From an uncultured Pseudomonadota bacterium (GTDB lineage: Bacteria; Pseudomonadota; Alphaproteobacteria; Rs-D84), in assembly GCA_902774285.1 (NCBI GenBank), contig CACYHO010000001.1, positions 137,303-201,302 on the forward strand: a stretch of 64,000 nt of DNA, given 5' to 3'. Below the pieces are notes generated by a model that did no database searches, was not told where the DNA came from, and worked only from the letters and a program-made list of their open reading frames with translations. Positions 18,506-20,551 of this stretch are shown piece after piece (positions within the stretch are counted from its first letter, which is position 1; every line of letters begins with the position of its first letter). Made by a program: the position numbers and the translations under genes.

Positions 18506-20260
18506 TTAACCGCGTTTACGTACTTGTATATGTACTTCACGTAATTGCTGTTCGGTTACTTCGCGTGGTGCGCCCAACATTAAATCTTGACCACGTTGGT
18601 TGGTTGGGAACAAAACTACTTCACGTAAATTTGTTGTACCTAAAATTATAGAAACCAAACGATCAATACCAAATGCACATCCGCCGTGTGGTGGTGCGCC
18701 ATATTGGAACGCAGCGTACATTCCGCCGAATTTTTCTTTCACGACTTCTGGACCATATCCAGCAACAGCGAAAGCTTTTATCATTATTTCTGGATTATAG
18801 TTACGAAGACCTCCACTGCAAATTTCAGCACCATTCAAAACCATATCGAATTGATTTGCTTTAATTTGTAATGGATCACCATCTAATTCGCCTTTTGGTA
18901 AACTAAATGGGTTGTGACCAAAATCTATTGTACCAGTTTCTTCGTTTAATTCGTACATTGGGAAATCTTCTATCCAACAGAATTTAAATTCTTGTGGATT
19001 TATCAAACCAAGGTCTTCACCCAATTTAATACGCAATTTACCAGCAGCCTTGGCGGCCTTTTCTTCTGTATCACAAACAAAGAACAAAGATGAATTATCA
19101 CCAGCGATTTCTTTTAATTTTGCAATACGATCTGCATCCAATTTCTTTGCAACAGGTCCTTTTGGTTCTTCGCCAAATACGATATAAGCCAATCCACCAA
19201 GTCCCAATTCTTTTGTTGCATAATCTGTCAATTTATCAAACCAAGAACGCGGTTTATCTGCGGAATTTGGCGCAGGTATCGCACGAACCACAGAACCATT
19301 TTCAACAGCACTTGCAAATATTCCAAAATCAGAACCACGGAATATTTCACTTACATCACTGATGATTATTGGATTACGCAAATCTGGTTTATCTGAACCA
19401 TATTTCAACATCGCTTCATCAAATGGAATATGTGGAATTTCAGGATCAACAATCGCACCAGGAACAAATGTTTTTATCAGTTCTGGCATCAATTCGTTAC
19501 CAACAGCTTGAATATCCAACAAATCTACAAAAGACATTTCAATATCCAATTGATAGAATTCTAATAATCTGTCTGCGCGCAAATCTTCATCACGAAAACA
19601 TGGCGCAATTTGAAAATATCTGTCAAATCCAGAAATTTGAATTAACTGTTTAAATTGTTGTGGTGCCTGTGGTAATGCATAGAACATGCCATGATGGTTA
19701 CGACTTGGCACTATATAATCACGCGCACCTTCTGGACTGGATACGGTTAAAATAGGTGTTTGGAATTCACTGAATCCCATATCCCACATTTTATCACGTA
19801 AAAACTTCATAATGCGATTACGTGTCAGAATATTATTATGCAAACTGTCACGACGCAAATCGATATAGCGATATTTTAAACGTAAATCTTCTGCAACAGT
19901 GTCATCATCACCAAATACAGGGAAAGGCAACACATCAGCATTTGTTAAAACTTCCCAAGATTCAGATTTAATTTCAATATGACCTGTTGGTAATTTATCA
20001 TTAACGGCTTCTGCATCACGTGCAACTACTTTACCTGTAATTTTGATAACAGATTCAGGATGAATCTTTTCAAGATTTGCATCCCCACCATCAAAAACAC
20101 ATTGTGTTATTCCATAATTATCACGCAAATCTACGAACAACAAAGAACCATGATCGCGTTTACGATGAACCCATCCTGACAAAGTGACTGTTTCACCGAC
20201 ATTTTTTTCGGTCAATTCACCACAGGTATGTGTTCTGTACTTTGATTTCAAAGACAACAT
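18506..20260 (-). CDS. aspS: Aspartyl-tRNA synthetase
   Basis: This class II synthetase charges tRNA-Asp. The 584-residue protein has the OB-fold anticodon domain (SGWVHRKRDHGSLLFVDLRD, about 27-46), class II motif 2 (FRDEDLRADRLLEFYQLDIEMSF, about 220), the bacterial-type GAD insertion (about 285-420) and motif 3 GGCAFGIDRLVSIILG (about 535). It lies behind tRNA-Thr and a leader containing a T-box-like antiterminator with a bulge that matches tRNA-Asp. The Shine-Dalgarno sequence AAGGTG is inside a hairpin, which suggests control of translation. Confidence 0.96.
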   Translation of the reverse strand: MLSLKSKYRTHTCGELTEKNVGETVTLSGWVHRKRDHGSLLFVDLRDNYGITQCVFDGGDANLEKIHPESVIKITGKVVARDAEAVNDKLPTGHIEIKSESWEVLTNADVLPFPVFGDDDTVAEDLRLKYRYIDLRRDSLHNNILTRNRIMKFLRDKMWDMGFSEFQTPILTVSSPEGARDYIVPSRNHHGMFYALPQAPQQFKQLIQISGFDRYFQIAPCFRDEDLRADRLLEFYQLDIEMSFVDLLDIQAVGNELMPELIKTFVPGAIVDPEIPHIPFDEAMLKYGSDKPDLRNPIIISDVSEIFRGSDFGIFASAVENGSVVRAIPAPNSADKPRSWFDKLTDYATKELGLGGLAYIVFGEEPKGPVAKKLDADRIAKLKEIAGDNSSLFFVCDTEEKAAKAAGKLRIKLGEDLGLINPQEFKFCWIEDFPMYELNEETGTIDFGHNPFSLPKGELDGDPLQIKANQFDMVLNGAEICSGGLRNYNPEIMIKAFAVAGYGPEVVKEKFGGMYAAFQYGAPPHGGCAFGIDRLVSIILGTTNLREVVLFPTNQRGQDLMLGAPREVTEQQLREVHIQVRKRG

Positions 20261-20265
20261 TTTTT

Positions 20266-20438
20266 ACACCTTTTTGTTTCGGTGTCGCAATAAAGTTTTG
20301 GTTAGCGGCACCAATTCAAATCTTAAATCACAGGGGCGCTAAGATTTTTTCGCGCGGTGCCACCCTGCTTTTTTTACTTAGGTGTGTTTTTATAAATACT
20401 CCACGGTTGTCAGTCGTATCAACATATTTGATAAAAAC
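20266..20438 (-). promoter_or_regulatory. T-box-like riboswitch leader of aspS
   Basis: Reading the minus strand, the leader starts at the base after the CCA of tRNA-Thr. A first hairpin (20386-20438, GTTTTTAT/ATAAAAAC, then AAATAT/GTATTT, then GTTG/CAAC) exposes ATACGACTGA with the Asp codon GAC (20413-20415). Next comes a T-box antiterminator (20331-20367): helix CAGGG/CCCTG, the 7-nt bulge TGGCACC, and helix GCGC/GCGC. TGGC would pair with the GCCA end expected for tRNA-Asp (discriminator G73). GGTGCCGC (20305-20312) can pair with the bulge strand in the alternative state, and ACACC/GGTGT (20266-20285) hides the Shine-Dalgarno. No terminator is seen. Stem I is much shorter than in Firmicutes. 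Confidence 0.72.
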
Positions 20439-20512
20439 TGGTGCCCTAAACAAGAATCGGACTTGTGACTCGTCCTTACCAAGGACGTGTTTTACCACTA
20501 GACTATTAGGGC
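20439..20512 (-). tRNA. tRNA-Thr (GGT)
   Basis: The acceptor is GCCCTAA/TTAGGGC with encoded CCA, the anticodon stem CGTCC/GGACG has loop TTGGTAA giving GGT, and the T-arm is ACAAG-TCCGATT-CTTGT. One mismatch is present in the D-stem. It appears to share a transcript with aspS. Confidence 0.93.
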
Positions 20513-20523
20513 GATCGCAAATA

Positions 20524-20551
20524 ATTATATATGTGAAAGGCAAAAAATCAA
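20524..20551 (-). promoter_or_regulatory. Promoter of tRNA-Thr(GGT)-aspS
   Basis: On the minus strand TTGATT, 16 bp, TATAAT, placed about 11 bp before tRNA-Thr. I see no second promoter between the tRNA and aspS. Confidence 0.7.

Follow-up and report, generated by a model that had tools for sequence, protein, structure and literature searches.

A putative minimal translational T-box riboswitch ahead of aspS in a family of small-genome Alphaproteobacteria

On the minus strand of a small-genome alphaproteobacterium, a 178-nt leader separates a tRNA-Thr(GGU) gene from aspS, the gene for aspartate–tRNA ligase, and the question that the locus raises is whether this leader is a T-box riboswitch and, if so, how so short an RNA would read a tRNA and act on the gene. 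A first-pass annotation of the window, by which is meant the whole 64,000-nt stretch of DNA analysed, had proposed a T-box ahead of aspS, and the core of the element, its conservation and its covariation support that identification. The leader is read here as a minimal translational T-box riboswitch controlling aspS, with a probability of roughly 0.88. The anatomy, conservation, covariation, complementarity to tRNA-Asp and alternative pairings come from sequence and comparison; that the RNA binds tRNA, tells charged from uncharged and acts on translation is a prediction. Confidence is high in both the T-box identity and the Asp/Asn specificity.

The locus and its T-box core

18506..20260, minus strand: aspS, the putatively regulated gene, a bacterial aspartate–tRNA ligase of 584 aa (NCBIfam NF001750, 745.9 bits, cut-off 443)
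20331..20368, minus strand: antisequestrator, helices A1 and A2 and the T-box bulge (pieces located, fold, covariation, RF00230 at 22.4 bits)
20368-20363 / 20335-20331, minus strand: helix A1, GCAGGG/CCCUG, with the CAGGG part at 20367-20363
20362-20356, minus strand: T-box bulge UGGCACC
20355-20352 / 20339-20336, minus strand: helix A2, GCGC/GCGC
20439..20512, minus strand: tRNA-Thr(GGU), CCA encoded (ARAGORN and Rfam)
20524..20551, minus strand: promoter-like site TTGATT-16 nt-TATAAT upstream of tRNA-Thr, 10 of 12 consensus positions, a consensus match only

The T-box element and leader span 20438-20258 on the minus strand, with tRNA-Thr(GGU) on one side and aspS, whose start codon ATG lies at 20260, on the other. 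Stem I of the element starts one base after the encoded CCA of the tRNA, and since the two directly abut, the 5′ end of the leader may be produced by tRNA processing in the window, and the promoter-like site probably serves tRNA-Thr, leader and aspS as one transcript. A tRNA-Thr(GGU) gene likewise precedes the aspS T-box in the same orientation at 33 of the 88 parsed loci, and in many species it lies within about 25 nt of stem I.

The hallmark reported by the first-pass annotation, a CAGGG/CCCTG helix, a TGGCACC bulge and a GCGC/GCGC helix, is indeed located on the minus strand at the positions given above. The nine-base motif GGTGGNACC alone occurs at background level (6 in the genome against 9 for the reversed control); a chance match was nevertheless rejected, as a single RF00230 match, the covariation and the order-wide presence are beyond chance. 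A search with RF00230, which had been recommended together with a comparison of aspS leaders, gave one match in the 855-kb genome, namely this leader (22.4 bits, E = 0.0024; E = 0.0043 on the leader alone). The score is below the Rfam gathering cut-off of 93 bits, which is a detection threshold and not a structural feature, because the model is dominated by parts that are absent from the compact form; the US-type T-boxes of relatives, which have a kink-turn stem I, a short apical specifier loop and a stem II with IIA/B, also score below it. None of 200 shuffled sequences folds as well as the leader (z = -3.1). The aspS leaders of relatives, of which 88 copies were parsed (84 distinct), carry the same element with covarying helices. 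In these the UGGN bulge (AGGGUGGNACC) sits in a two-helix antisequestrator, UGGCACC is invariant (84/84), and A1 and A2 are 100% paired. Across the whole element 92.8% of positions are paired, which none of 500 shuffles equals in any of five measures.

Stem I, the linker and the specifier

20386..20438, minus strand: stem I, kink-turn hairpin (fold, covariation, Rfam alignment of the stem I base in US-type relatives)
20438-20431 / 20393-20386, minus strand: stem I outer helix
20429-20424 / 20399-20394, minus strand: C-stem, AAAUAU/GUAUUU
20423-20419 / 20401-20400, minus strand: kink-turn, GUU-GA opposite GA
20418-20415 / 20405-20402, minus strand: NC stem, UACG/CGUG
20414-20406, minus strand: 9-nt apical loop
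20411-20409, minus strand: specifier GAC (Asp codon), in the apical loop
20369..20385, minus strand: A-rich single-stranded linker to the T-box (no helix by RNAalifold)

Upstream of the T-box, the first-pass annotation had described a single hairpin exposing the Asp codon GAC. The hairpin is present with GAC in its apical loop, but by its sequence and pairing, and by comparison with relatives, it is a kink-turn stem I, since the UGAUGA/GGAG base of stem I in the Rfam T-box model falls on the same kink-turn motif when US-type relatives are aligned. The consensus consists of a 6-bp C-stem, three loop bases, GA, four NC-stem positions, the 9-nt loop, and then the returning NC stem, GA and C-stem. 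Among 68 distinct sequences 88.8% of the stem I cells are paired, with a covariation score of 0.737 against 0.303 for column shuffles (0/500), and sliding the alignment by one column lowers the pairing to 30-36%. The C-stem changes at nearly every position with pairing kept, and the bases of the specifier, the bulge and the kink-turn are invariant or nearly so. The kink-turn motif NNN-GA/GA lies between covarying helices and its G and A are invariant, with the qualification that the parser accepted only hairpins having GA on each side and two or more inner NC pairs, and favoured longer C-stems among competing candidates, so these features are partly selected. There is usually a single candidate per locus, and the C-stem covariation holds. 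Six further loci, read by eye, depart slightly from the pattern. Non-standard combinations (U-G, C-C or A-A) are frequent at the first NC pair, as is usual at this position of kink-turns.

The distance from the kink-turn to the T-box is 33.0 +/- 1.4 nt (range 30-36, 88 copies), and this constancy suggests a geometric constraint. The linker keeps the A-rich pattern AAGUNAUAAA; that it contacts the acceptor helix of the tRNA is a guess. In the RNAalifold consensus of the relatives no conserved helix lies between kink-turn and T-box where stem II, IIA/B or stem III could be placed, and a stem II or III hidden in the linker was rejected on these grounds. Since stem I stops at the 9-nt specifier loop, a distal stem I with the elbow-binding double T-loop motif is absent as well.

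Positions 4-6 of the apical loop read GAC in 73 and AAC in 11 of the 84 distinct copies, with no other triplet, under a parser that favoured GAC/AAC-type loops by a bonus without making them obligatory; U stands at position 3 in 72/84, and A or G at position 7 throughout. In the window, UGACA is complementary to UGUCA, positions 33-37 of the organism's own tRNA-Asp; the AAC counterpart, UAACA, is complementary to UGUUA of its tRNA-Asn. The anticipated G73 discriminator, which matches the variable base C of the bulge, is found in the own tRNA-Asp(GUC). The tRNA-Asn(GUU) of the same genome also has discriminator G, and both tRNAs end in GCCA, which fits UGGC. The proposed aspartate specificity thus stands for the GAC ahead of aspS in the window, but has to be widened, as the specifier alternates with the Asn codon AAC in relatives. 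On the AspRS tree the codon changed 9 times, at least 7 of these changes being forced by supported branches. No asnS over the cut-off was found in 27 genomes searched and gatB is present in 16/16 genomes searched, the window genome included; AspRS therefore probably charges both tRNA-Asp and tRNA-Asn, which fits the repeated switching between GAC and AAC, and either tRNA, when uncharged, would then report a low AspRS output. A second aspartate–tRNA(Asn) ligase, of archaeal type (423.2 bits against a cut-off of 353), occurs in certain other genera of the family, where a separate US-type T-box with AAC usually precedes its gene. The alternation of the two codons links the evolution of the riboswitch to indirect Asn-tRNA synthesis.

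The predicted output and its alternatives

20305..20314, minus strand: relay segment B, UUGGUGCCGC, pairing either the T-box strand (A:B, off) or segment C (B:C, on)
20281..20288, minus strand: relay segment C, GCGACACC, pairing either B (on) or the Shine-Dalgarno (off)
20266..20273, minus strand: segment D, the Shine-Dalgarno AAAGGUGU, which segment C occludes in the off state

The leader has no terminator on the coding strand, as the first-pass annotation had noted; terminator-based output was rejected for this reason, and the output is most likely translational, again in line with the earlier judgement. The Shine-Dalgarno, 5 nt ahead of the aspS ATG, is covered by a hairpin of ACACC (20285-20281) and GGTGT (20270-20266). 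This hairpin had been proposed as the switch in place of a terminator, and while it is present, it appears to form the final step of a four-segment relay, with A being the T-box strand, B the sequence GGGUGCC or similar, C its partner and D the Shine-Dalgarno. In the proposed mechanism, the stem I kink-turn hairpin would present GAC to the anticodon of tRNA-Asp. The GCCA 3′ end of an uncharged tRNA-Asp would pair the UGGC of the bulge and fix the antisequestrator, leaving B free to pair C, so that D would be open and aspS translated. With charged tRNA-Asp the antisequestrator would fail, the T-box strand A would pair B, and the released C would close D.

Confidence in the relay as the output is moderate, its basis being complementarity, permutation tests and, modestly, energetics. 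Four-segment long leaders number 75 of 87, and in 69/69 distinct long leaders the A:B pairing is at -10 kcal/mol or stronger. The own-species match was bettered in none of 5000 between-species permutations, which ignore relatedness, for B:C and likewise for C:D, and the segments show concerted changes across species, for example UCGCC/GGCGA and ACACC/GGUGU. When computed with soft constraints that force the antisequestrator for the on state, the predicted openness of the Shine-Dalgarno is 0.39 on and 0.25 off, against 0.34 and 0.29 in shuffled leaders; the gain over shuffled leaders has a Wilcoxon p of 0.0002, a test in which the relatives are treated as independent though they are kin. The energetic support is modest and varies from species to species. 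In the window, the off fold (-40.9 kcal/mol) combines an A:B helix of 10 bp, extended by AAAUCUUAG/UUAAGAUUU, with ACACC/GGUGU, and the on fold (-43.7 kcal/mol) combines the antisequestrator with B:C. In the minimum-energy on fold the Shine-Dalgarno of the window is still paired, with ACACCU of the linker (20385-20380), a pairing not seen in the relatives' linkers that were read.

Such a contact points to a tentative alternative, which we regard as possible though doubtful: the leader would be a T-box in which the Shine-Dalgarno is masked by direct pairing with one of three partners (the T-box strand, the 3′ strand of the antisequestrator or the linker), with the B/C hairpin serving as a spacer or stability element. 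Besides the linker of the window and the small energetic gain from the relay, it is favoured by short-leader relatives that are without B and C and in which direct closing is possible, as the T-box GGCACC can pair a Shine-Dalgarno GGUGCC or GGUGUC (L014, L019, L059, L163) and the CCCC strand can pair a Shine-Dalgarno GGG (L041, L042, L184). The uniformly strong A:B pairing of the distinct long leaders, the permutation results and the concerted changes argue instead for the four-segment relay.

Two further features of relatives' leaders lie outside this comparison. In many relatives, L013, L011 and L016 among them, but not in the window, a GGG(C/U)GC run just 5′ of stem I matches the antisequestrator strand GCGCCC by complementarity and is possibly a further alternative pairing. 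Between segment C and the Shine-Dalgarno, L009, L022, L034, L143, L157, L176 and L186 carry a conserved 30-base hairpin repeat (CCCACNNCGC...GTGGGACAAG), of which genome G040 has four copies elsewhere. A dispersed-repeat origin of the leader was rejected, the repeat being confined to some relatives' leaders and absent from the genome of the window.

It is improbable that the element is a decayed T-box which has lost tRNA binding and persists as a constitutive leader. Stem II, IIA/B, stem III and the distal stem I are lost, and according to a review of published binding data (PMC7583486) there is hardly any tRNA binding by a truncated stem I that has no stem II to support it. Yet specifier, bulge and kink-turn are nearly invariant while the C-stem varies with its pairing kept, and the linker length is tightly held, which together indicate active selection and not decay. 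More remote still is an operator for AspRS itself that mimics tRNA-Asp, akin to that of E. coli thrS, which is controlled by ThrRS through a tRNA-mimicking operator. The gene is aspS, and the loop C-U-GAC-A-A on its short helix resembles an anticodon loop; however, the loop holds the codon GAC or AAC and not the anticodon GUC or GUU, making it complementary to the tRNA and not tRNA-like, and the T-box bulge would be left without explanation. A leader-peptide attenuator, with the stem I region as a short frame of Asp/Asn codons, has equally little to recommend it: an ATG in the window opens an 11-codon frame across the hairpin (ATGTTGATACGACTGACAACCGTGGAGTATTTATAA) and GAC AAC is codon-like, but that frame reads CTG ACA ACC and not GAC, and it was rejected since an ATG frame over the specifier is found in just 30/84 copies (GAC frame) or 27/84 (next frame), base pairing being kept instead.

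Distribution and relation to known T-boxes

The relatives are uncultured, mostly animal-gut Alphaproteobacteria, many of them from rumen, horse, deer, sheep and rabbit gut samples. RF00230 matches at E <= 1 in 78/95 genomes of the same family, and a covariance model, R1, built from 43 parsed copies, finds the element in 168/201 genomes of the order (112/126 among those at least 90% complete), with genomes outside the model-building set matching as strongly as those inside. Strong R1 matches are limited to the family; over 385 genomes of the class R1 gave three weak matches outside it, and RF00230 matches eight genomes. US-type T-boxes stand ahead of aspS in two members of the family (L002, L006) and in other alphaproteobacterial lineages (L232, L080, L082, L078). 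The AspRS tree unites the family in a single clade with 100% support, in which the two US-type members lie near the base and nearly all others have the compact form; the rows L034, L047, L051, L054 and L066, labelled 'none', do carry the element, four having been dropped as duplicates by the parser and the sequence of L034 beginning inside the T-box. The most likely ancestor of the compact form is an ultrashort-stem-I T-box whose stem II, IIA/B and stem III were lost. In L014 (1672 on the plus strand, 1891 on the minus) and L019 (1851 on the minus strand, 1641 on the plus) both types lie back to back ahead of divergent genes, the US type with AAC facing the archaeal-type aspS2 and the compact type with GAC facing the bacterial aspS.

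Other T-boxes were seen along the way. In L231 (genome G417, another alphaproteobacterium; minus strand, ~1501-1741) an aroF-like DAHP synthase gene is preceded by an element with a terminator-like hairpin that RF00230 scores at 110 bits, which exceeds the cut-off; the element was possibly acquired from Firmicutes. L235 (genome G111, another family of the same order; minus strand, ~1501-1638) has a T-box with a UGGU bulge, a terminator-like hairpin and a U run, and precedes a tyrosyl-tRNA-synthetase-like gene.

A full-text search, with subscription papers mostly outside its scope, found no published T-box in Alphaproteobacteria or Rickettsiales, and a T-box without both stem II and a long stem I is undescribed in that same literature. 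The T-box database applied its translational covariance model to Actinobacteria (PMC7778990), which suggests why T-boxes were missed in Alphaproteobacteria. The present element would place tRNA-sensing riboswitches in this class, and as a selected, family-wide element without stem II or elbow contact, it makes the minimum required for direct reading of a tRNA by an mRNA testable. We lean, with some reserve, towards a fuller description, in which this would be the smallest T-box known (about 95 nt of stem I, linker and antisequestrator), devoid of stem III and of both features until now considered essential for catching the tRNA, an elbow-binding distal stem I or stem II, and found family-wide. 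It would hold tRNA-Asp by loop-loop pairing of up to five bp (UGACA/UGUCA) and a 3′-end contact at a fixed linker length, act through a two-step RNA relay, and swap Asp and Asn codons repeatedly, the two tRNAs being served by one enzyme.

Among known systems, leuA T-boxes occur in Geobacter sulfurreducens and Pelobacter carbinolicus, both Deltaproteobacteria. These T-boxes, the only ones in 125 proteobacterial genomes (2/125), share the phylum as then defined, but are typical elements ahead of an amino-acid biosynthesis gene (PMC2494555). The glycyl T-boxes (glyQ, glyQS) of Bacillus and Geobacillus are alike in being without stem II and in a linker after the kink-turn that projects the discriminator (PMC7583486); they are transcriptional and, unlike the compact element, have kept the long stem I, its elbow-binding motif and a specifier placed in an internal loop (PMC7583486). 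The first-pass annotation had taken a specifier in the apical loop to be new, but ultrashort stem I T-boxes described earlier have one (PMC7583486). Those of actinobacterial ileS (Nocardia farcinica, Mycobacterium) share with the compact element the kink-turn stem I, the apical-loop specifier, the UGGN antisequestrator and the translational output, which for the compact element is predicted, and likewise have no elbow-binding distal stem I (PMC7583486, PMC10651847). In contrast to them, the compact element has no stem II with S-turn, no IIA/B pseudoknot and no stem III, precedes aspS with an Asp/Asn specifier, has the extra segments B and C and occurs in Alphaproteobacteria; as the 30-36 nt between kink-turn and T-box hold no stem II or IIA/B, it is not placed in the ultrashort stem I class. 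Finally, the US-type aspS and aspS2 T-boxes (L002, L006, L232, L080 and L082; aspS2 in L014, L019 and L174), of which L232 scores 55.9 bits and L002 45.7 bits against RF00230, have in common with it the kink-turn stem I, the apical XAC, the UGGC bulge and the gene family, and differ in their stem II with IIA/B, a 7-nt loop, a mostly AAC specifier and, where seen, direct closing of the Shine-Dalgarno.
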